DNA of 64,000 nt from Sphaerolaimus hirsutus (Eukaryota > Nematoda > Chromadorea > Monhysterida > Sphaerolaimidae), in assembly GCA_964036195.1 (NCBI GenBank), contig OZ038454.1:21190315-21254314 (forward strand), written 5' to 3'. Numbering within the stretch: the first letter of the stretch is position 1; every line of letters begins with the position of its first letter. Shown in pieces: positions 8,014 to 52,100 of this stretch. The notes beneath the pieces were generated by a model. The model was not told where the DNA came from and did no database searches. It worked only from the letters and a program-made list of their open reading frames with translations. The position numbers and the translations under genes are program-made.

Positions 8014-9957
8014 TAGGGTGTCAAATTTCCGTTTCCGTTTTCCGTTTCCGCCTTTCCGCAGGAAAATTTTTTACCTTTCCGTTTTCCGGCAGCCGAAAAA
8101 TTTTTACCTTTCCGTTTTCCGGCAGCTGAAAAATTTTTACCTTTCCGTTTTCCGTTTTCCGGCAGCTGAAAATTTTTTACCTTTCCGTTTCCGTTTTTCC
8201 GGCCCATTTTTCCGTTTTCCGGCTGAAAAATTTTTACCTTTCCGTTTCCGTTTTACCAGGCCATTTTTCCATTTTCTGGCTCGATTTTCAGATTTCTGGC
8301 ATTTTTCCATTGTTTTTCCAATCTGTATTTATCTTCAATTGGCTCATCCCATTGTGTTGTTTTTGTCTCTTGGAGCAGCATTGACAACTGGGATTTCAGG
8401 GTCAGTGAAACAGGTGCTGTGAACCCAATTGGGTCATATGCTGACACCAATAATTTATTCAAGTTTCGTCTGGTTGGTGTTGTGATGCTGTCAATTTGCA
8501 ATTTAGGTGTTGATATTGCCAGCATGTCCGTTTGGTGATTTTATTTCATGCCCATTACTGCGACAATTTTATTCACCTTTGGACTCCTGTCGTTTTCTGC
8601 TATTTCATTCATGACTGATCTGGAGTTTGACAGCCATTCCCTCATGTTCATAGAACATTGGTTAAATAAAGCTTTGACTTTGTAATATAGTTCTAAAGCT
8701 TCAACTTCATTCGTGACACTCATGATGAAGTTATCGACGCAAATGTTGTTTATTATCATCGCCAACTGGTATTGTTCCCCTTCATTTTCTTCATATTCAT
8801 TCATGTTGTTTATTGTCACATTTAAATGGTATTTTATGACTGCTCCCAAAATTGCTGGGCTGCAGACAAGTCCAAACAGTATGCGTTTAAAACGAAGTAC
8901 TATTAAGTTATTTTCAGTTACTGGTTTTGAGGCTCTTTCAGCCAGAAAAATCATGTGTAGTCTCTAGCTTGGTCATGCAATCCTATTTGCAAAAATGCCT
9001 TTTCAATATCGGCAATTAATGCTAGATTGCCTGCCCTGAACCTCAGGAGTAGGCCCAGTGCTAATGGTGTTGTAATTGGTCCTCTAAAAAGGCACTCGTT
9101 GAAACTGGGCTTACCTGCCGACCCATTGTACACAATTCTGCATGATGTCAATTTGCCCGGCGTGATTACTGGCTGGTGTGGCAGGTAATGAATCCCTTTG
9201 TTGTCTGTTTTGTCATCACAGATCTCAATTATTCCCTTTTCTAGTTGGTCATCCAAAACTTTCTGGTATTGTTCGAATAAGTTTGGATCTTTGTTGAATC
9301 TTCTTATCAGTGATTTAAACCGCACCAAGGGATCTGCTTTTCCTGTGGGCAGGTCATTGATACTCTCTTTATACAGCCAGTCAATATAGTATTGTTTGTT
9401 GTTGTCGTTGAATTTTATGCTATTTAATATCATCTCCTCTGCAATGTTGTCATCAATTGCATAGGGGTCATCAGTGATTCCCACTGCTTCTAGACTGTGA
9501 AATTGTCATAGTGTTTCCTTTCCTATGGCCACTATGGCTACTTTTTGATGATTTTTTGTTGGTTCAGTTAAGCTTGAACTACAAGTGAAGTTACAGGCAT
9601 GATCCATAGTTGCAGAATGTACAGCTACCACAATCAAAGCCAAACATGCAAACCTGCACACAGGTTTTCCTTCTGCAAATTTGTCTATTACCGTGCTAAT
9701 TTCACTTTATTTTTTTCCGTTTCCGTGAAAATTTTGCTTTCCGTTTTCCGTTTTCCGGCATTTCATTTTTCCGTTTTCCGTTTTCCGGCCGACAATTTTT
9801 TTTTACCTTTCCGTTTTCCGTTTTCCGCTGAGTGAAATTTTTTTACCTTTCCGTTTTCCGGCAGAAATTTTTTTTTTACCTTTCCGTTTTCCGTAAAGTG
9901 AAAAATTTTTACCTTTCCGTTTTCCGTTTTCCGTAAAAAAATTTTTTTGACACCCTA
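8014..9957. mobile_element. hAT-like element of the TTTTCCG family carrying a BEL/Pao fragment
   Basis: The ends TAGGGTGTCAAA and TTTGACACCCTA are inverted, with an exact 8-bp duplication GTCAAAAC at 8006-8013 and 9958-9965. The two flanks (8018-8290 and 9710-9950) are arrays of TTTTCCG and TTTACCTTTCCG words. They enclose about 1.2 kb of degenerate retrotransposon polymerase on the minus strand. A second, 588-bp copy without the retrotransposon lies at 61144-61731. Confidence 0.85.
8280..9490 (-). pseudogene. Degenerate BEL/Pao-type reverse transcriptase fragment
   Basis: The translated pieces read in order like the N-terminal half of a Pao-family reverse transcriptase: YYIDWLYKESINDLPTGKAD, a FEQYQKVLDDQLEKGIIE block, ITPGKLTSCRIVYNGSAG, then IADIEKAFLQIGLHDQARD. 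After an in-frame TGA (about 8951) it continues as FKRILFGLVCSPAILGAVIK, the VDNFIMSV region (where the conserved YVDD would be) and VSAYDPIGFTAPVSL. Stops and frame changes break it, and no LTRs, gag, protease or integrase are visible. It is a dead fragment enclosed by TTTTCCG arrays and the ends of a hAT-like element. Confidence 0.85.
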
Positions 9958-11831: not shown

Positions 11832-14800
11832 CTAGAAAAGGGGCACTTCGACCATCCAGTCGGGCTTTGCGACTCGGCCGTACTGCGTCACGAAGAAAAT
11901 ACTTTTATATAGAATTTATTAAAAAAAGAATCGGTTTGAATCGACTGTTCCGTGGTGTTCACGAACTTTCATATTTTTTATTCATGTTTTATGATTTTTT
12001 TGCAGTATGCGTGTGTATTTTGTATTTATTTAGTATTATTTTTTAGAGTAAATGAGACAAGATATACCAAGTAGAATCAGAAAGCAGAATATTTCGATTT
12101 TTTGGGATAAATATATGGCAAAAACACAGCTAGGCTTCAGAGGTTCACCCCTGCTGAAATAACACAAGCTCACCGAAGGCACTGAGCAAATAATTGATAA
12201 AAAAACACTAAAACGCCACCTGAATGCCGGTAATGGCATCATACATTCGTTTCATCAATCCATCCTTCTGTTCCATGGTGGGTATATGCAACAGTCGTTC
12301 CGTACCATCTTTTCTACGATGCAAAATTCTGTCCACAGGACAAACGATGCACGCGGTGCCCGAGCCGAACATTTCCAACATCTGTGATTTTTTTTGTCCG
12401 ATTTGTACTGGTCGGTCTGAACGCTACATAAAGAATATTAACGTATTTTGGTTAATTGACGTGAAAAAGTGTGCGTAAATTCACGGATATTGACAATTGA
12501 GAGCGATGTGAGTGATGAGAAACTAGGGTTCAAACGGGGCAAGTCTTAAGTTAAACAACAAGTGACACGTTCAATTATAAGGGATCATTTTTTTCGGTAT
12601 TTACGTCACTTAAAAGTGTACTTGTTCGTGGAGGTTTTTTCAACGTTTTACTTAAATAGAAACTGGGTCAGTACAAAAGTTTTTACCACCCCCTGTTCTT
12701 GTCACTTCATTTTCCATTTATATTACCATTTATCACTTTGCCGCCACTTGTACACTCGCGGAATGAGCACCTGGGCTTACGCGCACCCTGTAAAGTGTCA
12801 AACGTCATGTAAAATGTCTTTTGACGTCTGATTAAAATAGAACTTCTGATTAAAATAGAGAACTTTTGACATTATTAATAACATTTGACAATTTTTTGTG
12901 GCATTTTACATGACAATTCACACTTAACTTTACACTTTACACTTTACAGGGTGCGGGACTGCCACCTGGCCAGTGCATCACAAAGACAACACCAAAACCG
13001 ACCCTGCCTTCATCGACGGCCTTCTCTAATTCAGCCATAGTCAAATAGCGTTGGGAAACTTTGAACCCGGTCCATTTATCTGTCAACTCTAGTAGCGAGT
13101 CCCTAGTGACGCCGGGAAGAATTATGCCATCGTCCAGCGGCGGGGTGACTAATTCGCGATCTGCGCATTCATTGAAGTTGGGGAAGTGATTAAACTTGAT
13201 GAATTGAGTGCTCTGCCGCGATTGGAGAAGTAAAAAAACCATTTAGAAGTGAGAAGTAAAAAGTTAAGAGAAAAGTAAACTTTGATCTATTCACTTATAA
13301 ATTCACATTGTTTTTACTTTTTACTTCTCACTTAAAATTTGTTTAACTTCGCCACTATCGGACTTGATCTCTTTTTGCAATTTAATTTGGAAATTGTCAT
13401 TTTACGGTTTTCTTCATGACACATATTTGGGAAATTTTGTATGTGACACCTTACCTGGGCCCATTTTCCAGCACTTTTTCTTCTCGAAATTTTGAAATTA
13501 AATTATTTTAGATATCGAAAAGTTACAAACCCAGGGCCAGTCCCAAACCCTCTAAAATGTCAAATCACCTATAAACATTAGCGAAAATATCACTGAGTCT
13601 TTGACATGACATTTCACACAGTACAGAACCGCCAAAAAACAAAAACAAAACAAACCACCATCTTCATTGATCAGAAAATTGAAAATATTCATCGTGCCAA
13701 CTTCTGTCAACTTTTCATCCTCCCCATACAGCCACAAAACTTGCTGACAATCTCTTTTGGCCGCTTCCTTAGCTATCAATATGGTCGGCGCGTAGTTGCT
13801 GCGTTTGTGATTTCAATTTTTGATAGATTTTTGGATTAGTTATTGTGCGAATGGGTAATTATGCGGTTGGGAAATGGGTTTAAATGGGATTCCGATAGGT
13901 GTGCGACGATATGTAAGGAATTTACAGGTTTTCGTGAACGAGAAGAATTGAAAATGAGGGAGTCCAATCCGGATCGAGACAAATGTCCAGCCAGTCCCAA
14001 TCCCGGTGCCACTTCCAGATGCTGTAAAATGTGAAATGTCACAAAAATTTAAATTCAAATCTCAATTTACATGTAAAATGTTATCTGTGATACGTGGTAA
14101 ATTATTTATAGCTGTTCCGCCATTTGCCATTTTACAGGTTCGGGGTTGGCTTTTGATCCCAAAAGTCCAACCACTTTCAACTCTATTCGCAACTAGGGTT
14201 CTAGCTCTGTCCTTCAGTAATCTGGTGCTACACAGAGACCCTGTAAAATGCCCTGTGACCTGACATATGCCATGCAAAGTGTCAAAAGTCTTGTAAAATG
14301 TAATGAAAAATGTCAAACGTCCGGTAAACCAAGTAAAATTTCACAAGACTTTTGACACTTTGCATGACAGTTGTCTAGTTACAGGGCATTTTACAGGGTC
14401 AGGGTGTAGCACCAGATTCCCGAAAACCAAGCCGAGCTAGAACCCTAGTTGCGAAAAGAGTTGAAAAGTGGTTCGACTTAGCCCCGAACCAGTAATATGT
14501 CAAATGCTGTGGGAAAAAACTATTTTTACCACGAATAAAAGGGAACATTTTAATTGAGATTTATCAAATTTGTGTGACATTTCTCATTTCACAGGGTTCG
14601 AGACTGCCGCCAGGCTTAGAAAATAACCGACATTCTAATGGACTAAATATCGGAATTCCATTTGAAATCCAAATTCTTAAGCGATTGTGCATAGCTTGTG
14701 CTTGTGAATAGGCAAGCGGTTGCTTGAAAAGTGTTAAAGGGCTGTTAATGCAGAAATTTCTTTTTGTTGGATGAGGCTTTTCAGGCACTTTCGCAGCGAA

Positions 14801-17800
14801 TATAAATAATCACTTTTCAACCTGCGATATCAATTTCGCGTATTAATTATGTACAAGTGCGGAAATTTATCTCATCTGAGAAGCTCGACCTGTAAACACA
14901 TCTAAAAATTAAAAATAGAACTTTTGTAGAGATAAATAACCGCACTACACTTTTTTGAACACAGCCTATTGGCGCTTGGCGACGACAAGTCGATTAAAAC
15001 CGAGGTATAGCTCTTTTACATCTCTATATAGAAGTTTTCACAAAGGCAAAAGCAGTTGTCACACTAGCTGACAGGCGAAAATTCAGTTACCGTATATCCT
15101 TGAATAAGTCCCCCACGAATAACTCCCCTCTGTTGGCCAGGTGAGGAAAAAATAACTCTCCCCTCTGGTTATTTGATATATTTATGTATAGGGTTCAAAC
15201 GGGATCCCGATCCCGGATCCCGTGAAATTCCGGGATTTAGCAGTCCCGATCCCGATCCCGAAACCCCAATCCCGATCCCGATCCCGAAATCCAAAAATAC
15301 CAATCCCGATCCCGATCCCGAAAACTTTCAAATCCCGATCCCGATCCCGAGAATCTCCCAAGTCCGGGATCCCGATCCCGGAAAAAATAGTGGAAATTAT
15401 ACAAAGTGAAAAAATGACATTTTTGCATGCAAAAATGTGAACGCAAACCCCCAGCGTCCATTTTATGTCACTTTTCTGGCATCCAACAGTGTTTTGAGAC
15501 CTTTATGAACAACTGTGAAGGCCAGAACAGTGACAAAAATCTCTATCCCTAGACCCCAATCCCGATCCCGAAAAAATGCCAATCCCGATCCCGTGACCCC
15601 AATCCCGGCCAATCCCGATCCTGATCCCGAAATCTCAAAATACCAATCCCGATCCCAATCCCGATCCCCCAATCCCGATCCCGATCCCGAAATCTCAAAA
15701 GTGAATCCCGATCCCGATCCCGAAAAGTCAATCCCGTTTGAACCCTTTTTATGTATCCACCATGTGAATTTGAATGTTTTGGATGCTGATGAACATGAAT
15801 TTTAGCACGAAGATCTTGTTTTTGTTGTTGTTTAACTGCAAAATACCTGGGTTACAGAAGTTGATGGAATACATTTATGCAATGAATAAAGTCTTAGTAG
15901 GTACTGAGGAAAAAGCAACTCCCCCTTCAAAACTTCTGACGAAATAATAACTCCCCTGGGGTCTTATTCGAGGATATACGGTAACTCAAATGTGTCCAAA
16001 ACAGATTTAAAACCTAGAACAATTATTCAACTTTAAAAATTTCAGTTGTCAACTAGTGTGCGTAGCACCTAGATAAATACTGTTTATACTCAGACTTGAA
16101 ATTTGTACAACAACAAATGCTGAAGGGATCATTCATATTTACATTTCTTCATGCTCGCTCAACATGCACAATCAATATTGTAAATAGTCATACAGTTGAC
16201 AAGTTCTTTTTAGAAATCCAAAAGCAACATTTTTTTGTAAATAACATCTACTTTTTGCACCGTTGCACAGTTCGAGAAAAAGTCTTTAGGCACACGGTTT
16301 TTTTTGTGAGAACAAATTTTTTCTCGACTTCTTCGACTTGTGCGACGCCTCGATCTTGATCAGCATTATTTTACAATTTTGCGTAATAATAAACACTGTT
16401 TTAGTCAATTTTGATGTCAAAGTGACCATTTTGACATACTGGTACATTAACACACTCATTACAGGCACCTAACACATTCACACAAACACACTCACGATTT
16501 CGTACACTCCCCCTAAACTCCACCTACCATGCCATTTTATACCCTCCAGTGCCTCCTGGAAAGGCTCTGATAAATTGGTGATCTGCCAACAATTGAATCG
16601 GTTTGAACCCGGTGGGGAAGTAGGCGCCCACGGGGCCGATCGTCACGTATAACATGGCCGATCGCGAGTAGTTGATACCCAACGTCGGCTGTGTTGTGGG
16701 TACTTTTTGGGTATCTGTACGGGTATCTGTATCTGCGTTGGGTACTTTCGCGGGTACCAAGTGAAGAATTTGAAAATTTAGTAGAAGATTATGTAATTGC
16801 GCATGTATTTATTTACGACATGGGGGGGTAGATAGGGTGCAAGCAAGCGGCATATACTGCGAGTAGAAGAATACCGGAGGTGCATAGAAGGATGCGAGAG
16901 TTTACAACGGTGCACAATAGCTAGCTGGAGTTGGACCGATAGGCCGTATCGGATGTCGATATCTCAAACTTTCGATAAATATCGATATCTAGATATAATA
17001 AAATCGATAGACTATCGACCATCGATATGGCGAAACCACCGCGTTCAAACTTCAATCGCAAGCACAGAAATAGACGAGACATCAAAAGACAGATCAAGAG
17101 ATAAAGCACAGGTGGGACCAAGAGAAAAAGATACAAAAAAGTCACAAAAGCCGACGAGAATCGAACCAAAAACGTGCGCGCAAGCGAGCCAAAGCGCAAA
17201 TTTACCAGGCCATCTTGAACTGGCCGACCCCTCCAACGGGCGCCCTAACATAATGCCCATCTGCAAACAGCTGCACCGGTTTCAATCCGGTGGGGAAGTA
17301 GGGGCCGGCCGGACCGCAACACACGAATAGCAGGCCCGATTTCGAGTATGACACGCCCAGTGTCGGCTGGTATTTGATGGGTACTTTTGGGTATTCTGGG
17401 TATTGAGTATAAGCGACTACTTTTTTTTGGGGGGGGGGAGTAGCATTTTTTGTAGGTTGGATTCGTTACGTGACGAGTTTTTTCCATCGAAACGAAACGG
17501 TTTTATACCAAGAGACGTGAATATAAACAATTTTTTTCAGCTGCTTTTTTTAACTTGTGTCTTTTCGACATTTTCGCGGGTTTTTTCTCGTGAACTGTAT
17601 TTTGTAAAATTGGAACTGGGCCATTTCACATGTTTAATAGAGGGCGGCCTACATTTTCCCTGGGTAGTGTCCAAAAATGACAAAATAAAGTGAAAATACG
17701 AAAAAGCTGGAAAGATTTACCCGAAAAGTCCTGCGAACACACACTAAAAAGTATAACACAAAAAATGGCTGATGCAAGAACAAGAACATAATTATTGTCT

Positions 17801-20800
17801 TTATAGTCTAAAAATGTAAATAACAACCGATTGAGACTAAACATTTTCCCGGCAAAACATTTGGACAGCTTAAAAAAAGCTTTGAGAGACTGCTGCACTA
17901 AATACTACGAGTATGAATGTTTTGACTGGTTTTTGTAAATTTTTCGCACTCGTTGTTTTTGTTGATTTTCGCATCGGTTTTCAACTAAAAATAAAGTGAT
18001 TGTGGGGAGTCGACGGAATTTTTTGAACTGAATTTTTCATATTTGAAACGTTTTTGAAGTTTTTCATATTTGAAACGAATTGGTAAAAACGTGGTTCAAA
18101 ATTGACAAAAAACTTAACCCCCTTCAAAGTTTAAAAGAAAAATAATTTCCCAAAGGATAATTTCATACTAAAATATTTTGAGTGCCAAAGTTAAGAAAAT
18201 GTAAATATGATGTATATATCGTAAAAAGTCTTTAATCAGCCACACACCAAAAAAATTCAACTACCACCACGTGTATACGGAAACGAATAAAAGTGTGAAA
18301 ATATGAAAAAATTTTCTACGGTGCCACACAGCACGATCTACAGTTCGGTGTTTACAGTAACGAGCAAAAAGTTTTGCTTCTATGCGGCCAAATTACGAAA
18401 AGTTTATGACTTAAGCGCGGGATTGGGGCGATATTGAAAAGTATGGATCCAGGTAAATACCGATAAATATCTAGCATTTTTGATATAGAATATCGATATC
18501 GACAATTTTAAACCAAAGCCGAATGTATTTCGACTCTTCTCAAAGTAAAATATCAGTGTCGAAGACTATCGAGATTGTTAAGTTTATATCGTTTCCTAGC
18601 GAATCACGCACCCAGCGCCCTGTCAAGTAAGAAATATCCAAAAAAATACTTTCTTTCATTTTCGAAAAAACAATGGCAAACTTTCAAATCGTTCTTTATG
18701 GACGGGGCATGCGGAGATGGTGACTGCAGTTACCCTGTCTAGCAAGAACCATGTGCAAAATTCACCAAACTTACTCAACTTTTTCTCAACTTGACAGGAC
18801 ACTCTACTTAGCGTTTCCACATTACAAAATTTAAAAAAGTAACCCCACACTCACATCCGTTCCTATATAAGTCGGCCTGATATACAAACTAGCGTCCGTG
18901 CTCTGCGGGACCCAATCCGCATCGACGCGGACCAATTCCACGATGCATTTTTGCAATTCCGCAGTGTCGAACGCGGGCAGGGCGGACCGCTTGGCCGTGG
19001 CCAACATGCGGGACATGTTTTTGTCAGGACGAAATAGACGGATGGTCCCGTCGACGCCTCTGGGGTGGGTGGGTGGGTGGATTTTGGGCGGAATTTTGTT
19101 TGGATTCACTTTTCAACATTTTTACATGATTATTTCAATACTTTGATTCAAAATAGACATGCATTTAAATTTGTGATTAGAAGTCGTTTGTCACTGGTCA
19201 CTGTTATCACCACTGTTAATTGACAGTGTAAAAGTTGCAGAATGGACCACAGTTTTAAGGGTCAAGCCACACTGGCTCTAAACATACAAGTTGACAAAAG
19301 AAATTTACAAAGCTACTTGATTTTTTTCTACACTTTTTGAGTTTACCGGAAGGGGGAACTATTAACCTTGTCTGATGCAGATCGAAAATAAATGATTCTG
19401 GTAAACTCAACAGTGTTCAAAACAGATTTTTCACTTTTTGCGGAAGCTCTGGTTGCCAACTAGGCAGATTGGCATGAAATTTACAACACCCCCCAAAAAC
19501 AACCCACCTATAGGCCTTCATGCCCTCGAACAGCGCGGTGGCGTAGTGCAGCACCTTGGCGCCGGGGTGCAACTTGAGCATGTGCAGCGGCACGATCTTC
19601 GGCCTGCCCCAACCCTCGTCCTCGTGCCATTCCACTTCGAGCATGTGATCGGAAAAGTTGGCGCCGAAAATGAGCTGCGATTTAGAGTCGGGTCGCTTTT
19701 GGCGCTCGTCCAAGGAGGCCAGGCGGATCGATAGGTCGCGGTGCTGCGGGTCATTGCATCATTTTTCGATTTTTTTTCAAAACTATCTATGTTAAATAAT
19801 GAATTTCCGTATTTCAGGCAATCTACTCAATTTACTAGAATTTACTCAATGCAGTACATACTATACTCAATTTACTCATTGCAGTTTTTATTTTACCGTG
19901 ATTTCAAGTTGATAATTTATTACATTTGAATAAGGCGGTAGTACGGCGGGACTGACCAAAATATCGGGGGGGTTGGCGTGGTTTCTTTTCTTTACCTCGC
20001 CTGATTTTTCTTTTTTGGTTGGAGGTGAATATTTAAAGAAGTGGGTGAACGGGGGAGTTGTTGCGGCATATCGACGACGCCATTGGTCGCTGAGAACCAT
20101 GACGTCATCGATTTTAAATTATTACCATAATCAGGGACGCATGTGCATGCACTCAGCCACGTGATTATCACGTGATTAGCACTGCGTGCATGGACTTTTT
20201 TTAGTAATTATCGTGTGCACCGCACCCGTGCACATGGCGTGCCGCGCGACTTATAAATGGGCCGCGCACAGGTGCCTCCATTCAGTTGTTTTTACTCGCT
20301 CAGCGTTGACCAAACCGTAGTCGGTCAATGCTGAGTGGGTTTGTGTGCCAGAACAATATTTGGCTGACTGCGACAGCGCATGGCGTGCGTCATGCGTTAT
20401 CGCAGTCAGCCAAATATTTTTCTGGCACGAGCATAAAACGCCTCGCAGACTGGGGGTCCAATTGCCTTTGAATAAAATGGACAGCCGAACAAAATCGTCA
20501 TAAAATAATTTAAGTAGTTCATTTTGGTCATTCAGTTCATCTAAACACCTTCCCGGTCACGTCTGGCAGCCATTTTTTGATTTTACTTCTTATATCCTAT
20601 CCCCAGTTCTAGGACGCCCCCATGGCTGAAACTTGGGGGAGATATTGGTGCAACCCCCCTCTACTTCGCATGAATTGGGGGGGGGGTCGCAGCGACCACT
20701 CTCAGTCTGGGTCGCCCTAAGTGCAAATTTTTTGTGGCTTTTTTGGTGTCCCACAGCAGGTCCGGAACCCGCTGATTTCTGAGCTGTGGGAGGGGTATAA

Positions 20801-27630: not shown

Positions 27631-28209
27631 TAGGGTTCAAACGGGATCCCGATCCCGATCCCGGATCCCGTGAAATTCCGGGATTTACCAGTCCCGATCC
27701 CGATCCCGAAACCCCACTCCCGATCCCGATCCCGAAATCTCAAAAATACCAATCCCGATCCCGATCCCGAAAATTTTCAAATCCCGATCCCGATCCCGAG
27801 AAACTCTCAAGTCCGGGATCCCGATCCCGGAAAAATTAGTGGAAATTATAAGAAGTGAAATAATGACGTTTTTGCATGCAAAAAAGTGGATGCAAACCCC
27901 CAGCGTCAATTTTATGCCACTTTTCTGGCATCCAACAGTGTTTTGAGACCTTTATGAACAACTGTGAATGCCAGAAAAATGGCCAAAATCTCTATCCCTA
28001 GAACCCAATCCCGATCCCGGAAAAATGCCTATCCCAATCCCGATCCCGATGCCGTGACCCCAATCCCGGCCAATCCCGATCCCGATCCCAAAATCTCAAA
28101 AAACCAATCCCGATCCCGATCCCGAAACCCCAATCCCGATCCCGATCCCGAAATCTCAAAAAGTGAATCCCGATCCCGATCCCGAAAAGTCAATCCCGTT
28201 TGAACCCTA
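27631..28209. mobile_element. hAT-like element, ATCCCG family
   Basis: Ends TAGGGTTCAAACGGGATCC and GGGATTGACT-type inverted end ...GTTTGAACCCTA; exact 8-bp duplication CCCATGAC (27623-27630 and 28210-28217). Same core as the copies at 15189 and 38375. Confidence 0.85.
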
Positions 28210-28244
28210 CCCATGACTCAACAGTCAGAATATTACCACAATGT

Positions 28245-31163: not shown

Positions 31164-34100
31164 ATGGATATTGCTTGGAAAGAATACAAGGGCTTGCTGC
31201 GGCGGGCGTATTTCGGTGACGCGGAACAATGTTTAGCGCCGAGAGACAGCGATCTATGTCGAGACTTTTTCACGTAAGTTGATTTGTAGCTGTTGTATGT
31301 ATGTGGAGATTGATGAAACGGTTCCCTGTAGTTATTGTCAGTACTTTTCTATTGCATACGGTGCTTGGCGTGGGTCGATGGGTGCAAGTATTTATGTCTA
31401 TTAATGTGCCTAGTTGTTGTGATTAAATACTGTTTTGTCTATAAATGTGCCTATACTTGTGATCAGTGGAATATTGGTTGGCGTTTAAGTAGGCACTTCT
31501 GCAAGCTTTTTGCACGGCGAGTAAATTTGGAACACTGTTAACTTGCATATTCGAAAAAGTTATTTACTAGTTTGTAAGAACTTTATGTGAAAAAACCCCG
31601 GGTTTTTCTGTTCACAGGTTTTTCGACAAATATCGACTTATGGCAGAGAAAAAGCACGTATACTCGGATCAAGCTGCCACATCAGCCACCCATGCTGTGG
31701 AAAGTTTGGACTCGCAAGGGTCTGGACCCCCAGCTATTGCGCCATATAACAAATTTTACAGGGTGACCCATAAAATTGATTTGGATAAAACGTCGAGATA
31801 TTCGATCAGACAGGTTTGAAGGGTTTCGTGTGCACTTTTCGGGGAGCCATCCCCGCACCGTGTAGAATGTTATGTACACTTGAGTGTAAAATGTCAATAT
31901 CTCAGTAAAAATAGAAGCTGTGTAGAAATAGAAGTGTATTTGTGTTTACATGTTTACAACTGTTTATTGCATTTTACTTTTTCAAAGACATTTTATATTT
32001 CAAAGAATTTTCAAAGTCACTAATTTTTTATTCTGGATTGTTTATAAAGATACTCCAAATAAATATTGTATACTAAACACAGGGGTCTCGAATGGGGGGG
32101 GGGTTGGGGGGGGGGGGGGGTTACCCCCCCCCCAAACCGCCCAGCTATCTATCTATCCCGGAGGCCGCTCAGCTATCTATTTATCCCGGAGGCAAAATTT
32201 TGGGCTACTACCCCCTAAACCCCCCCCCCCCAAATCGCCCAGCTATCTACCTATCTGGAGCGATTTTTCAGAAACTATACCCCAATTTTCGCTCAAAATC
32301 GCTATTTTTCATACCTATATATAGATTTTCACCTCCAAAATCACTGGTTCATGCGTCTAACTGCCTATTTTCAGCTATTTTAAGTACTATATGCTCTTGT
32401 ATACCCATTTTGAGCTATTTTACACCTACTTTTAGCGATTTTTCTCCCTTTTCTTCCTTCTATGCCACGAAAAAGCCTATATATCGAACCACCACAACCC
32501 CCCCCCCAAACCCCCCCCCCCCCCAACCCCCCCAGAAAATTTTTCAGCTATCTATCCCTCCGGAGGAGCGATTTGCTATCTATCCAACCACTCGGAGGGT
32601 CAAAATTCAAGATACCCCTGACTAAACATCTATCTATTTTATTTATATAAATATAAAAAACACACTCATAAGTCCCCCTCCTTTTCAGATTCCCCGCTAC
32701 ATAGTTGCCGAATTCGAATACATCTGGCACTGTTATTTGGAATTTTGTGAAAAGTCCAAATTGTCCAAATTGAAGTCACTACGACAAGCGCAAGCGGCTT
32801 TACCCATCGCTGCGCATAGACGGGAAATTCTCGAAGCGATTGCCAATAATGCGGTCACTATTATAGCTGGGGATACTGGCTGCGGTAAAAGTACGCAGGT
32901 GGGCGGGGCCTTTGTTTTTTGCAGTTGCGAATCACGGGAAAAATCGGTGTGTGGATGCGCGGTGAGGCGTGAAGTGTCTTCACGCCGACGCTTCACCGAG
33001 CTTTGTGTACTTATCACAATTATCGTTGCATACTATGGCACACTTTAAAAGTGGCACACTAATTTTCATGTAAACTGTCGTACTTAGTAAGTAAAGTGGA
33101 GGCACATTGGCTGGATATTATATCGTTATTATTTTAACGGCGTATTATTACACAACATGTAGAACAAATGGAAGCTTTTTCACGAAAAATGCCTCGAAAC
33201 CAATGAAAACAACCACCAACGGTAATCTGTGCATGCAATATTGCATTAGTACTTTTTTGGATATGGTTTGTTAAAAAACGGTTTCGATGTCTGCGTTTAA
33301 AAAACTGTTTAAAAAGACCTTTAAAAAGACAGCGATGCTGGTGGAAGCTTTTGGAAAAGTGCCCCTTTACGCGCATCCAGCCCGCTTCACACACTCATTT
33401 TTTTCTGATGCACTTTTGATTGTTTTGAAGGCTTTTTGGGTTGTAAATAACCCAGTAATATGCTTTTGAGAATTTGTGAGTTGCTTGGTGAAAGTTGTAA
33501 AGAAATTTTGCATTTATATTTGTATGTCATGTCTCGTGTGGAAAGAATAACTATGAGTTACAACTTTACCTGTCGCTAGACTTTACTTTGTAACCTTTAT
33601 TGCCACTTGACCAGGCGCGACACTGGTACCAGGGGGCTATTCCGCAAGTAGAATATCGAGAAAAATGTGGTGAAGTCTAGGTGGAAAGTCATTTGCCAAG
33701 AAAACTTTATGGTAACTACATAAATTTCTTCAATAAGTTGCACATAACTTTGCGCACACTTGGTATAATCACTTGTCACCGTGACTTCGTGGGAAAACTG
33801 AAGTTTTTTCAGATGCAGATTAATCAACACGTTTGACTGATAATATTTAATTTTAGTGTGTATTTAAATTAATGACAGTTGAAATTTGAAACTTTGAAAA
33901 CTAAAACACATATATTTAGCATTCAATAAGAGTAGGCTGAATGGGCAGTGAACTATGCCGCATGTAAACCCATCCCGCATGTTGACCCGGAACACATTTA
34001 ATTATACCTGGCATGTTGAAAATAGGTAATAAAACACATGACCTAGTTATTTTGAAGGTGAAAATCTATAAGAAGTATGAAAATTAGGGAATTTGGTGAA

Positions 34101-40100: not shown

Positions 40101-43100
40101 AATAATTTAAAACTTAAAGTTGAACAGGCAAAGATCGAGTGGTATATGAAGAATTTGAATTTGAAATTTGAGTTCATAGATCCCAGTCCGGAAAAATTTC
40201 TCGTCCCGCTCCTGACCCCCAAAAAACTGGCCCCGTTTGAACCTTAGCTCAAATCCATTTCCATCAAACAAACAAACGAAAACATCAAAAACACACCCTC
40301 CACAATATCCTTCAATTGCACATCCATCCAATCGATAGCATCGCGCTGTGAATCGCCGCCGCCGAAATTCAGCAATTTGTCGGGATCGCAAATTCTAGTC
40401 GGTCTGTCGAATCCGCACGCTGCGAAACCGGAACTTTTTGTCGGGTTCGGCAAATCGGTTCCGTCCCAATCTTTAGCTAGGGCTCGTGCTAATGTTAAAA
40501 GTAGGGCGGCGGTGTGTAGGAGTAGGGATTTCGGCGGGATTAGTGATGGCATTTTGGGGGATTTTCGGTGCCTGTGTGGGTTTTTTTTATTGAGCACATG
40601 TTGGATTAAATGTTGGAAGATGGAATGATGTGATTGTCGGTATCAATATTCGACAGTAAAAAGTACCGGATGTCCGATATTTTGATATCGATATTAGAAA
40701 AAAAATGATATCGATGTTGGATGTGAAAAGTGGCGTTTTCTAAATCGGCTGGTTGTCATAGGGTGCAGCAACAGATTTCGGAAAAATGTGATCTCAGCAA
40801 TTTTTCTATGGTATTTGAGGAATGCGCTTTTTTATACTTAGATAATCACTATTGAATTGGCTCTTTGTTGATTCTACTGAAATATTCCAATTTTACAAGT
40901 ATGAATATTTAGGTATATATTTCTGAGCAGCCAATGCAACTTAGTAATGGTACAGGTAAATGCGAAAGTTCTCTGCCATAATGAACACATCAAAATGAAT
41001 ATAAATATCACCAATGATCAAATTAACATTTACATCTCATCACTTTTGAGCTCAAAAAGGCATCACACGTTAAACGCTGCAGCATCATTTTTATCCATAT
41101 TTACTTTCAGCAAAATTATGTACCATGTGTAATGTCACTTTTGCCTTGTATAAAACAGAGGAAACAGTTTAGGGAGTGGTTGTGATTTCCTGTGACTTTT
41201 TTACACTTCAAATACTGAATTTTGTAACTTGAAATGGGGCACACCTATTTGGAGTATGCAGCGGAACAGGGGATATAAAAACGATTACTTTCTGAAGTCA
41301 ATTTCAATTAATTTATCCGACGGAACCCGATTTGATGCATCTAGGGAACCGTTTTTTTTAGGATGCGCGTAATATGGAAGAAAAGTAGATGTGAAAGTTG
41401 ATGCATAAAACTCAAAACAATTTCATTGTTTTTCATTCTTCACTCACTAGTCATTTCATGAAATTTGTTGACTTGCCCCCATGGGTGAAGGCGGGAGAAA
41501 ATAAATACTCCCAAAATATTAGTCACCATGATATCTAGTGTATTTCTAAAAATCCTGCCGGGTGTAATTGAATTTAACCATGCACATAACTGCGTGTAAA
41601 CATAAATATGCATGTTTTACACATGAGTAAAGTATCATGAAACACATGTCAAACAACTCAAACAAAGGCCGGGTTGAGTGTCATAAAACTGACATGGTGA
41701 CAAAAATTACTGGTCAGATCAAACTGAATTATGTGAAATCTAAAATTACATAGATGGCAGAACAATTTAAAGTGGTTCAAATTTTAAATAGTGGTCATTG
41801 GCGGAAAATCTCGTGATCAAACAGTATGGACCAGTGCCAAATTTCAAACCACCCATTGTTTATTATAGGCCTCCCGATGACAATATGTGTTGGCATTTCA
41901 TCATGCATACAACCAGGTAACGCATGTGATTCATGTACATGTTACTGCGTACATAAAAGTGACCTTGTGGCGTTTCTTACCCAAAAAGATTGAAGACATG
42001 CTTTATACCATGATTCCTCTTGCAACCATGTGTAAAATCTGACTACACCTGTACATGGTGGTTCAAACTATTAGAAACCCTACATCTTTGACACAAATGA
42101 ATGTTACTACACACCTGGAAAATTTGAACCCATTTTTGGGATATTTTTACATCACCCTCTGGAGGTGTATATAATTGACTAATTTTTAACTTCTAATTTT
42201 CTATATTTTATAGGGTAGAAAGCAAAAAGTGTAAGAACTTCACGAATATTTGTAAGTTAATGGGAATATTAAAGAAAAAAGAAGGTTAAAGTAGAGAAAG
42301 GTTTTTATGTTGTTTTTTTTAATTTGGAAATCATGGTAAAATTTCTAGAAAATAGATAGCCTGGTAGATAGCTGATTTCGGGGTCTGCAACTTAGGGAGT
42401 CTGACCGAGGTATATTTTTACAATAGGTTTTTCAAAAAAATTCAAAATAATAATTTCAAAAACATAATTTTTCACATTCTTTCCGCACCAGCCAGTGTGT
42501 GCAAACATCTCACATGCCGCGCAGCGTGTGCCCCCGGGCAGGGGCACCGGGTAACCTTGACGCTCAGCGGGCGAATGGGTGCTGTGAAGTCCGCCCGGTG
42601 CCCGGTGTCGCGGCGAAATGTGATGGGGAAATTCGGGAGGTAAAATTTTGAATGCCTTAGTTTCACTGCGGTGATTCATATGTCTGTACCACAGGGGTTT
42701 TGTAGATTTGGACCCCCGCGGGGTTCATATAGATAGCAAATCGCTCCTCCGGAGGGATAGATAGCTGAAAAATTTTCTGGGGGGTTTGGGGGGGGGGTTC
42801 GCGGGGGTTCAAAATATAGGCATAGAAGGGAGGAAAAGGAGAAAAATCGCTAAAAGTAGGTGAAAAATGGCTAAAAATTGGTATATAAGGACATATAGAA
42901 CTAAAAATGGCTGAAAATAGGCAGTTAGACACATGAACTAGTGATTTTGGAGGTGGAAATCTATATAAAGGTATGAAAAAAAGCGATTTTGAGCGAAAAT
43001 TGGGGTATAGTTTCTGAAAAATCGCTCCACATAGATGGATAGCTGGCCGATTTGGGGGGGGGGGGGTTTAGGGGATAGTAGCCCAAAATTTTGCATCCGG

Positions 43101-46100: not shown

Positions 46101-49100
46101 CCAGGAAAAACTATAAAAATTGTAAATAGAAACCGTATGAAACTAGTGCTTTCGAAAAACCTGTACAAAATCCATTTTCAAAATTGCAAAATCAGGAGAA
46201 ACAATGATCTTTTTTCATTGTGTAAATACTTCTCAACATAAACAAGTGAACTGTAAAATTTTCAATCAAAACTAATAAGTTTCCCAACTCTACCCAATGT
46301 AAATATGTATATATACACAGTACACACTGTATCTCATGAAGTGTGTTCTGTACATAGTATCTGGTATTTACAGTCTCATGCAAAAAGTCAAATGTTAAAA
46401 CATGATCACATGCATACAGCTGATTGTGTATAAATACTACTAGCAAGGGCCAGATGATAACATTACACATTCTCTATCAGACTTTTAACTGTGAATAGCA
46501 AAGTACCTAGTGTTCAATTGAACATTTCTGCTGTTTTCTTTCATTTAAAAAATTGAAACTGAACAGCAGAAAAATTTTTAACTGAACAGCAGAATGTGTG
46601 AATACATAAATTATGACATGACCGAAAATTGGCCGGAAATGAACTGTTTCATCATTTCTCAATGACGATTGAAAAACGAGAATTGGTGTCAACGCCTTGT
46701 GCATTTTTGCGCCTCACTCACTGATTGGTTTCTTTGAACCTGGGCCAGTGACATCCCAAAATGAAATCAAGATGAATTACAATCGGCATTAAGTCCACTA
46801 TATATATATCATATTTGCACGTTGTGTATTTTATTTACTTACGCACATCAATTCTTGCATTTGTATGTGAATTTGTACATGTCGAAGTGGTACCTAAATA
46901 TTTATGACTGCATTCGGAAAATTCGATAAATTCGGGATTCAAAAGCATCAATTTTGATACTGAGGGGAAATAAAAAACTTGCTAATTTTCTCCCCCAGAA
47001 AATTTGTAAATCAAGTCTTTCAAATACGAATACTGTAAATCCTTCGAAAAACTCGCCCTCGAATAAGTCACCCTTGAATAACTACCCCCGGTAAGCTGAC
47101 CGAGGTAAAATTACCCCCCCACCCCCTTCAAAACCCCCCCTCGAAAACCCCCTCTCGAAAAACTCCCCCCTCTTTGATGGGTGGGAAAGACGCCATGTAA
47201 ATATAAAAATGTACCTATGTAGTTAAAGTAGTTTTTTTCCAAAAAGACCCTTTTTTGCAAACTTTTCCATTCCCACCATTTAATCTCATTTGGTAACCAC
47301 TGAAATAGATAAGTACACTTTGTATGTGGGGGGTGGGAAGAGGCGTGTCAAGTAAAATTTCTTGCAGTTGTCGTAAAAGTGTTTTTGAGCATTTTTTATA
47401 ACTTCACATCCCCGCTGAGTCAAAAATATGTGAAAATTTTTTAATTTGTCAATATTTTACTGCAGCGTTTACTATTATGTAAATGTTCATAAAAGGTAAA
47501 ATGTATCATTTTGCAGTTAGTGGCACTAGCATTGATTTCATTGCATGTAATAACGAATTTCTTTCCTGGCTCACACGTTGTTGCAGGTAATTTTACCCCA
47601 TTTATACACTATATCGATCAAAAAATATATGGAACAGGGGTCTCCTATGGGGGGGTGTTACCCCCCAAACCGCCCAGCTATCTATTTATCCCTGAGGCCG
47701 CTCAGCTATCTATCGATGCCGGAGGCAAAAATTTTTGCCTATACTCTGCGCACGTGATACTCTGCCCTCACACTGATTTATGTCTCGTGTTGGAAGCATG
47801 CCAATGATGATTAAATCATGCGATTTCCATAAAAAGATGAAAAAATTCATCGATGTGAATATGTTAATGAATAACATTATAACAACAATCAATTTTGTCA
47901 TCTTTTTATGAAACTCGCACGCTTTAACCATCGTTGGCACACTTCCAGCGGGAACCACACGTGCAAGGTGTAAAGTAACCGGGGTATACTATCCGCTACC
48001 CCCCCCCCCCAAAACGCCCAGCTATCTACCTTTCCGGAGCGATTTTTGAGAACTTTTGCTTAAATTGTTGCTAAAAATTGCTACAGTTCATGCGTTTTTA
48101 TTTCCATTTTGTTGCAAAACTTATGATGTGAATGGTCAATAAAGAACAAAAAAGTTATCTCACAGTTTATCTGACACTATACTAGGGTTGGCCGATGTTT
48201 TTTTTAAAACGTTTTTTATTAAAAAAAAACGTTTTTTTTAAAAAAAAAACATCGAGTTAAAAAAAAACGTTTTTTTTCCAACCCTACACTATACCACCTC
48301 ATTTACCCCCCCCCCCCCCCCAATTTTTCAGGTCCCTCAATATCTCCTCTCAGCCGGATACGAACACGTCGCGTGCACCCAGCCCCGAAGAATCGCCTGT
48401 ACATCTCTATGTCGTAGAGTTGCCCACGAAACGTTGAACGAATTTGGGTCAAAAGTGGCCTATGCCATTCGGTTTGAGCGGACCAAAACTGCCGGCACGA
48501 AATTGCTGTTTTTGACTGAGGGGTTGTTGCTGAGACAAATGGATCTTGATCCCGTGTTGAATGATTATCAGGTATTAGATTTCAACATCGTTTACCTTGA
48601 ATGAGTCCCCCCGTCAAGTATTTTTACTTGTCGTGTTTTTGTAGGTGGGTTTATTTAAGGGGGAATAATTTTTTAGTCAGAATTTTTAAGCACCAATATG
48701 CACAAAATGTCAGGGCTATTTTTTACATGTCATTATATATTTGACTCCATCAATTAGGGTTGGAATAAAAACGTTTTTTTTAACTCGATGTTTTTAAAAA
48801 AAAAAAACGTTTTTTTTTTAAATAAAAAACGTTTTTTTTTTTAAGTTCCCAGATATGACCTTGTGTCAACATATATAGGTATATCAGAGAGTGGCAATAC
48901 TCTGTGATGTTATATATGACCATATAATGGCTGTGGAGCCATGGGATAGCATTATAAGTGGTGATTTGTGTCAAAAATATCCATTTTTCGTCGACATATC
49001 GTTCGTATATCGCCTTATAGTCGAATGTTCGTGACTTCAGGTAAAGTTTGGCACGGAATAGTGATGAAACAAGGTTATAAAAGGAGGTTGTTACTTTGGG

Positions 49101-52100
49101 AGTGAAGTTACACACTGTGGAGGTACATGGAAGCACATTACCTCAATATTATATACATAGTACAGCAACATATGACGGCTTATTAACCCATGGTAGCACA
49201 TAGAAATGGATACTTTGGTACTAAAATGCTACAAAACCAATGAAAACAACCACCAATGCCAATTTGTGTGTGAAATTGCGCGCTTGCGCGCAAAAATTTT
49301 GCAAAATACCTAGTGTTAAATGTTAAATGTCATGTAAATGTCAAAAGTCTCAAAAAGTCTATTTTACAGGGTGCGGGACTGCCACCATGTCTCAGGCCCA
49401 GTTACATACCCATATTAGGCAAATGCCAATCGTTGTGTTCAATATGAACAAAAATGGCTTGTTATTTTGTTAATAATGCATTTTTTTGTGAAATGAGTAT
49501 ATGAAAAAGAGATCTGAAAATTATGCGAAATAATACTTGCCCCTTTGAATAAACCCCTTTTGAATAGCCCCCTCAAAAATCTCTGACGAAATAAAAACTC
49601 TGCAGTTGAATTATTCGAGCAAATACGGTACCCACACCCATTAACACACCCATAGGTGGTCATCCTGGACGAGGTGCACGAGCGCCACCTGCACGCCGAC
49701 CTGCTGGTGGGCTTGTTGAGAATGTTGTCGGTGCAGCGGCCCGACCTGAAGGTGGTGCTCATGTCGGCCACCATCAATTTGGAGCTCTTTTCGGAGTATT
49801 TTCCTGATGCACCAGTTATACAGGTGGGTTTAATGGTTTGGGATGGGTTTTTGTTGGTTTTGGTGTGTGGGGAAGTTTTGAAGATTGTTTCAATCAATTG
49901 TGTTGTTTATGTTTATCAGTTCGCTTGAGGTACTGTATTGTTTTGTGTAGGTTCCCTTTATTGTGCCCATAGTTGAGATTCAGACATTAGGCTTTTCCGG
50001 ATTGACAGCTACATAAGCTGCGGGTTTTAAAACGTATTTAAGCTATTTAACGCTAGTTAAAGCTAACGTATTTACATCAATGGTGTGATACACTCGCTTC
50101 CGATTTTGGGGATGGCCATTTATCCTTTGAGACTCGCTGTTTGCAGCATCTATACAATGTGCAATGTTGTGTAAAAAAGTTACAGACACACTGCTGAATC
50201 GATGGAAAATCCCCAAAGTATTTATTCCGCTAAGTGCCAGAAAATGTCGCCATAACAATATTCATGCAAATAGCACCAGCGCCATGGCGCCATGTAAACT
50301 CTATCACCTACCCGACCAAATACTTTACAGGTACCCGGAAGGTTATACCCGATCCAAGTCGAATATCGACCGATCGCAAAAATGGACTTAGGACTGGAAA
50401 GATCGAAAAAATCTACCAAAATCGACCCGGCGCCGTACAGGAGAATTTTGGCTCTTATTGACGCGAAATATCCAAAAACTGAGAGGGGAGATATGCTGGT
50501 ATTTTTGCCGGGAATAAGCGAAATGACCACAATCGCTGAAGATCTCAAAATGTATGCTGAAGAGTGTAAAAGTTGGATCATTTTGATGTTGCACAGGTAA
50601 GTTGATGTTGGTTTGAGGGTTGGTAATTTTCAGTTTTAAAAAATTAATTTTTCCGTGTTGATTGAGTTTTGGATCTGAAAAAATGTTTGCACTTTTTTAA
50701 TAACACTGTACTCGATACGTGGATAAGTGACAAGAAAAGTCAAATCATAGTGATAGGTCTAGTAACTAGTGTTAAGTGACACACTTATTGACATCGCAAA
50801 TTCGTGACAATTGAATGTCAAAATATTGTTAAGAACATCACACTTTACAGAAACAGTGAAAATTACCGTATTTCCTCGAAATACCCCCCGGGGGGTGATT
50901 CTTTCATAGTGGTCCCGAGAGGGGGGGGGGGTTAAACGAGGGGGGGGGGATATTATTTCACAAGAAAATTTTTGAAAACCAAGTACGAAATTGTCGTCTG
51001 AAACGTACGCAGACGTCGAAAAATGCAACAAAAACCGCCATTTATAAGGTTCTGTAGACTAATATTAGTATGTAGGTGGTATGTACACTGTTCTAACGTG
51101 ACACCGACATTGTTTTAACGTGTGTTCTGCAGTACACAGAACACAGTTATTGTCATGTACGTTCCCTTTACACTCAATTTGGGGGGGTATTTCGAGGGGG
51201 GGGTGATTGTTTCATAGTGGTCTCGAGAGGGGGGGGGGGTCAAACGAGGGGGGGGGGATATTTCGAGGAAATACGGTAAGTGTCACGATATAAAACATTA
51301 ACTATGCTCTATCATATAAGACGTTCAAATCACATTGAACTTCAAATCACGAATTCAAATCAAATCACCCAAATTGAGTTGAATTTAGTTGACACGTAAT
51401 TTGATGTCAACTAGTGTGCACAGCCACAATGACACCAGTTCCGACCCCAACCCCACCTACCCCCAGCACGCTATCGCTGGAAGAACAGGACAAGGTGTTC
51501 GACATGGCGCCCGACGGCGTGCGCAAGTGCGTCCTCAGCACCAACATTGCCGAGACGTCGGTCACCATCGACGGCATCCGCTTCGTCGTCGACTCGGGCA
51601 AGACGAAACAGATGAGATACGACCCTACTACGGGGATGCATCAGTTGAAGGTTGGGGGGGGGGGTGTTGTATTGTTTGGAGATGCGATATAGTGTGTTCT
51701 GCATTTTTCGAGTTTGTTTGGGTGCGCACGCTAGTTGACACGTTGTCAACTGATCATTATGTCAACAAACAGCAAGTTATCTGAGTTGGTCATAATTTGC
51801 ATTTTTGCCGTGTTACAATATTATTGCGTAATTGCGGAATATTATTGCTATTGATCAACTTTGTCAACTGATAGGTAAAAAACTGGAAACTGGGGTTGTT
51901 AATAATCACCAACACGTTTTTTTATGTGTTTATCATAATATCTGGAGAAATATCTTGGCATCATATCATAATCGTAGATGGTTACTGAAAATATCAATAT
52001 CATATGAATGATCGATATCAATATTGATCAAATCCCAAACTTTTGTAAATATTTATTTCCTCCATCCCTTGTTAGGGATGAAACTCCAATCTTGAAGTTG

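Follow-up and report, generated by a model that had tools for sequence, protein, structure and literature searches.

Branched-chain aminotransferase (BCAT) catalyses the first step in the breakdown of branched-chain amino acids. Vertebrates have separate BCAT1 and BCAT2 (PMC12913542), and in C. elegans impairing bcat-1 lengthens life (PMC4686672). Alternative splicing of a BCAT gene is described for human BCAT2, in which the skipping of exon 2 is regulated by SRSF10 (PMC13237086). Tandem-duplicated mutually exclusive exons are described for other enzymes, namely KHK, PKM, PFKP and ACOX1 (PMC9741552). For human events with tandem duplicated exons, 80.6% of the predicted ligand residues are kept, versus 53.1% of the others, and in the case of ACOX1 the swap covers 55 residues, of which 28 are conserved, and all five predicted FAD contacts are kept (PMC9741552). 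The terms BCAT, aminotransferase and transaminase have no occurrence in the main text of that paper. The preliminary description of the present locus held that no switching of active-site exons is described for BCAT, and this agrees with a limited search of the open-access literature, in which no described case of a BCAT with mutually exclusive exons was found. In another group of systems, the choice between mutually exclusive exons is controlled by RNA structure, using docking and selector sites (PMC6071210).

The gene described here is a BCAT gene on the minus strand of a 64-kb window (the whole stretch of DNA analysed). According to tblastn and translation, it carries two tandem alternative exons, B and then A. 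It resembles the animal BCATs (BCAT1/BCAT2, class IV aminotransferase, PF01063) in the PLP lysine, Tyr173, the interdomain loop and the CXXC motif, and differs from them in that the exon for residues 151–204 (human BCATm count) is present in two versions within one gene. The likeness to human BCAT2 lies in the alternative splicing of a BCAT gene, whereas the human event concerns a single cassette exon (a 75-bp range is given) with no swap of homologous active-site exons. The likeness to KHK, PKM, PFKP and ACOX1 is closer, with ACOX1 the nearest: the exons are homologous, about half of the residues are conserved, and the ligand residues are mostly kept. In contrast to these enzymes, the BCAT exon holds the catalytic Schiff-base lysine, and the use of the BCAT pair in RNA is predicted. 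The locus looks like a known kind of event, a tandem exon swap in an enzyme, at a new and functionally pointed site. We consider it likely that B and A are functional mutually exclusive exons, and that one BCAT gene probably makes two enzyme forms.

All exons given here lie on the minus strand, and a slash marks the exon boundary. The constant exon E2 (19508–19743), which was identified by tblastn and translation (whole-genome match 1.2e-47), runs from HRDLSIRL to EGMKAY and ends in phase 2. The constant exon E3 (18855–19059) ends with IGTD at a codon boundary, and its donor is GAT/GTGAGT. Exon B (17206–17366, 161 nt; PTLGVSYSKSG..GGVGQFKMA followed by TG) and exon A (16528–16688, 161 nt; PTLGINYSRSA..GGTGGYKMA followed by TG) are the alternative exons. 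The constant exon E5 (13656–13798) completes the split codon as TG/C (KMA-C-NYAPT), and both E5 and the constant exon E6 (13003–13160) have a PF01063 match in the genome search. The constant exon E7 (12220–12381) carries the CXXC motif (CIVC), and the last coding exon E8 (11832–11882, acceptor GACGCAG/TAC) encodes YGRVAKPDWMVEVPLF and then a stop. No 5' coding exon beyond 19743 was found by a simple motif scan; at least one 5' exon is missing from the model. The introns E3–B, B–A and A–E5 are 1488, 517 and 2729 nt long. The GC contents of exon B (0.61) and exon A (0.53) are exon-like, versus 0.35–0.43 in the three introns around both. Most acceptors of the gene are without a clear pyrimidine tract.

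Each alternative exon consists of 53 codons plus two bases, in the same phase and with a catalytic lysine. Both begin at the codon boundary after IGTD and finish with TG, to which E5 supplies the C. The acceptors are ..ATACCAG/CCG for B and ..AACACAG/CCG for A, and the donors are CTG/GTAAAT and ATG/GTAGGT, respectively. The two exons are adjacent and homologous, agree in length and phase, and have intact splice sites, as is characteristic of tandem-duplicated exons. When E3–B–E5 or E3–A–E5 are joined, one open BCAT core of 355 aa results in each case (the last short exon excluded), and both isoforms match Pfam Aminotran_4 with 93.1 and 95.8 bits against a cut-off of 28.5. When B and A are joined together, or both are left out, the frame shifts into early stops. 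The preliminary description had reported tandem 161-nt exons with intact acceptors, donors and catalytic lysine, and its coordinates proved correct to the base, as did the flanking junctions at 18855 and 13798; that inclusion of both exons breaks the frame was confirmed by joining the exons in silico. Because inclusion of both or neither shifts the frame, the frame rule alone suffices for exclusive protein products. The B–A intron should be long enough that crowding alone would not forbid the joining of B to A.

The proposed mechanism is as follows. One exon would have been duplicated in tandem, in the lineage of the animal, within what is apparently its only BCAT gene. Each mature mRNA would carry either B or A. 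Double inclusion or double skipping would cause a frameshift with early stops, and these RNAs would be either lost or without function. Each choice would produce a complete fold-type IV transaminase, and the two forms would differ in the interdomain loop and at pocket position 155. Both exons are presumably spliced in vivo, and the choice between them may depend on tissue or stage.

To place the segment in the enzyme, it was aligned, by way of a snake mitochondrial BCAT (P0083), to the mitochondrial BCAT chains of the PDB, which we take to be the human enzyme. The numbering is fixed by Lys202, Leu153, Val155 and Tyr173 of human BCATm, which are named in PMC6957111. According to this alignment, the alternative segment corresponds to human BCATm residues 151–204, and contains the end of the small domain, with the pocket residues Leu153 and Val155, the interdomain loop 171–181 and the strand up to Lys202. 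The interdomain loop thus lies in the segment as had been claimed at first, whereas the accompanying claim that the segment covers the residues before the PLP lysine fell short, as the PLP lysine itself is also inside. The PLP lysine (Lys202), Tyr173, Leu153 and CXXC are kept in both isoforms, as is the glycine-rich GGxGxxK stretch; the CXXC motif (CIVC) lies in the constant exon E7 and is common to both. Pocket position 155 is Ile in A and Val in B, as in 6 and 115, respectively, of 121 homologues (120 listed from the first protein search and one from the segment search). The loop reads GAYFPTGFKP in A and GPYFPTGLKP in B, and is one residue shorter than the human loop. In BCATm, the interdomain loop modulates access and so affects substrate binding, and Tyr173 is in contact with Cys315, which belongs to the redox CXXC centre (PMC6957111). 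Since the loop, Tyr173 and pocket position 155 all lie in the swapped segment, an exchange at this site could adjust access, selectivity or redox coupling while the chemistry is retained. We infer that the exon swap may tune substrate entry or access, selectivity, kinetics or redox coupling; the chemistry would not be removed, nor the activity abolished.

Exons A and B are identical at 104/161 bases and 31/53 residues, and thus differ at 57 bases and 22 residues. The base differences are distributed over the three codon positions as 17/14/26, and Ks is 1.23 and Ka is 0.34 (NG86). In a neutral simulation, 57 changes were introduced in 5000 runs starting from each copy. On average, 20.1 of the 53 residues stayed identical in the runs from A and 20.7 in those from B, with maxima of 28 and 29, and 17% and 20% of the runs, respectively, were without stops. 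The observed 31 identities were attained in 0/5000 runs from A and 0/5000 from B. Fifteen columns of the segment are conserved in at least 119/121 homologues, and A and B each keep 14 of them. At the 15th, residue 53, both copies have Ala in place of Gly, and Ala is present there in 1/121 homologues. The preliminary suggestion that both copies are under selection is borne out by the neutral runs and by the conserved columns. Gln32 is present in both A and B and in 0/121 homologues, so the exon was probably duplicated within the lineage. A tree built from the segment alone joins A and B as sisters with an SH-aLRT of 81, which is moderate support and comes from just 53 columns. We read these results as an exon duplication in the lineage, after which both copies would have been under purifying selection for a long time, with B the freer one.

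A freer evolution of B would bear on the question of whether only one copy, probably A, is used today. The other copy would then have been functional for a long time and would now be spliced in rarely or never. By BLOSUM score, B is below A for 117/120 homologues (means 171.7 for A and 153.5 for B), and 10 residues of B, such as Pro43 (0/121) and Gly11 (1/121), are seen in at most 3/121 homologues, against 7 residues of A. A mildly relaxed exon B is possible, and a recently silenced copy would show the same signs in its sequence. B has, however, an open frame, both splice sites and exon-like GC, and of the 15 most conserved columns it has lost a single one, which A has lost too. On average, A is identical to the 121 homologues at 30.6 of 53 residues and B at 30.3, which is equal for practical purposes; homologue by homologue, A is closer in 53 cases and B in 44, with 24 ties. 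The end branches of the segment tree are similar, 0.35 for A and 0.47 for B. Even when all 57 differences are placed on B, the 31 identities are still reached in 0/5000 neutral runs. A dying copy is an unlikely explanation.

The frameshift itself permits another reading, in which the duplicate would serve to tune the level of BCAT, the RNA with both B and A would be a poison RNA for nonsense-mediated decay, and the enzymes would be little different. Both B plus A and double skipping do lead to early stops. A poison copy, however, needs no protein-level conservation of its own, yet both copies are conserved as protein. We regard a switch of this type as very improbable compared with functional mutually exclusive exons.

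The genome assembly searched comprises 348 Mb in 762 contigs, and the window lies on a contig of 30 Mb (C6). Searching the whole genome with the A isoform yielded seven matches at E <= 1, all within the BCAT gene and with exon B included. The Pfam PF01063 search at E <= 0.001 gave two matches, both within the same gene. When exon B was searched against the genome as DNA, together with the 74 bases upstream of it, the only matches were to itself and to exon A (73% over 134 bases, E 3.5e-12). Exon-by-exon protein searches and Pfam PF01063 searches of the 348-Mb assembly revealed no second BCAT gene, and BCAT looks like a single gene in this animal. An assembly error, collapsed haplotypes or exons from two genes can hardly account for the pair, as the copies differ at 57/161 bases and lie 517 nt apart on a 30-Mb contig, the other exons were found once each in the window, and the assembly yielded no other BCAT gene. 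The splice sites, the phase, the frame, the protein-level constraint and the lack of another BCAT copy in these searches support the reading of B and A as mutually exclusive exons, which the preliminary description had put forward.

In the first protein search, 7994 candidates were scored and 7313 relatives were found; the best 120 of these 7313 were listed. Among the matches listed, the top seven include nematodes, with 59–62% identity, and the eighth is the brachiopod Lingula with 59%; the named nematode BCATs among the 120 matches listed show 54–62% identity. No close relative was found, the best identity among the matches listed being 62%. In the protein search with the segment only, B gave four matches among five candidates (a tardigrade, Argonauta and two grouping with Argonauta), and A gave one match, Panagrolaimus superbus; the identities were 64–69%. 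For the constant part, a careful tree was computed from 41 rows (the window gene and a selection by the authors of 40 among the 121 homologues). In it, the BCAT gene is located on the nematode side of a split supported by 100/98, where the other 19 rows form its sister group. An earlier quick tree of all 121 homologues placed the gene between nematodes and other animals with a support of 49. These positions would suit a nematode that branched off early or, more speculatively, a nematomorph.

Short similar elements are present in the introns preceding both alternative exons, and in this respect the gene resembles the clusters controlled by RNA structure. The element of exon B, CAGAATACCCAAAAGTACCCATCAAAT (17372–17398, minus strand), and that of exon A, CAGATACCCAAAAAGTACCCACAAC (16693–16717, minus strand), are both acceptor-proximal and align over 26 columns with three single-base gaps and no mismatch. 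Its end lies 7 bases upstream of the start of exon B and 5 bases upstream of that of exon A. The score of the alignment was reached by 1/300 shuffles of the 100 bases before each exon, and by 4/300 shuffles of the whole introns. No similarity was found downstream of both donors, where 267/300 shuffles were as good. Among 9138 stretches of the minus strand of the window, each element matches at that score only itself and the other one, and clusters of at least three TACCC per 80 bases occur on this strand of the window solely upstream of A and B. No Rfam match was found in the window at gathering thresholds.

In the whole genome, the core of the element (a 17–18-mer, motif ATACCC(A)AAAAGTACCCA) has 11 occurrences, versus 0 for the reversed control; besides the two BCAT sites (L016 and L017), it is present at nine places. 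The flanking sequence was examined at 10 of the 11 occurrences. At the locus L012 (1501–1545), the core is located 26 bases upstream of an acceptor, which is followed by an exon of Argonaute (Pfam ArgoMid, E 3.3e-12; PDB argonaute-2, E 5e-28). According to a reading of the translations, the cores at L018 and L019 are possibly upstream of exons. L010, L014 and L015 are flanked by a common sequence, and L011 is similar to L013. A splicing element specific to BCAT is rejected, as the core recurs genome-wide and once before the Argonaute exon. Like the lower BLOSUM scores of B, this weakens the case for mutually exclusive exons. The element would be, at least partly, a general acceptor-proximal motif of the genome, and the ATACCC(A)AAAAGTACCCA motif may be a 3'-intron signal.

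A docking search was also performed with the two elements. Both share their best partner near the E2 donor (19508–19469), with −22.0 kcal/mol for B and −22.8 kcal/mol for A. Shuffled elements paired better in 2/20 cases for B (best −25.2) and in 6/20 cases for A (best −28.4), although the scan with the shuffled elements moved in coarser steps (10 bases) than that with the real ones (5 bases). A docking and selector RNA model for the choice between A and B is unsupported, since shuffled elements find partners as good. The BCAT elements differ from those of the clusters controlled by RNA structure in having no partner that clearly beats shuffles, and in recurring in the genome. A perfect 9-bp complement between GATACCCAA in the element and TTGGGTATC at the start of exon A spans the acceptor of exon A (16669–16728, minus strand). 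The possible hairpin is not significant (fold z −1.74, 13/200 shuffles as good); a stretch reaching further into exon A has a different best fold, and the hairpin is absent in two exon B stretches. The reading frame is the only enforcement of A/B exclusivity that was found.

If B and A are mutually exclusive exons, splicing would stand in for gene duplication in core metabolism, and branched-chain amino acid flux could be retuned by splicing. We suggest, tentatively, that in an animal with a single BCAT the exon switch provides two enzymes, differing in the loop and at position 155, which would do the job of vertebrate BCAT1/BCAT2, with splicing retuning the flux. A BCAT pair differing at just 22 residues near the active site would also be a clean natural experiment, relating the loop and residue 155 to substrate choice and redox control.

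Several other features are present in the window. On the minus strand, ORFs at 8541–9505 are, judging from their sequence style, presumably of a Pao/BEL-type retroelement polyprotein, with no Pfam hit at 0.01. On the plus strand, two ORF pieces at 32626–33048 and 48242–48604 carry GDTGCGKSTQV and TQPRRIA, motifs that suggest DEAH-box helicase exons; they have no Pfam hit at 0.01. An ORF at 51389–51784 (plus strand) weakly matches a DDX23-like domain (E 0.0068, below the cut-off). The start of a probably secreted protein is located at 40244–40642 (minus strand); it weakly matches MOLO1, a modulator of the levamisole receptor, with an E of 0.0083, which is below the cut-off. Related CGGGATCGGGAT-rich repeats, evidently one dispersed repeat, are located at about 15219–15740 in a BCAT intron and at 27660–28210 upstream of the gene.
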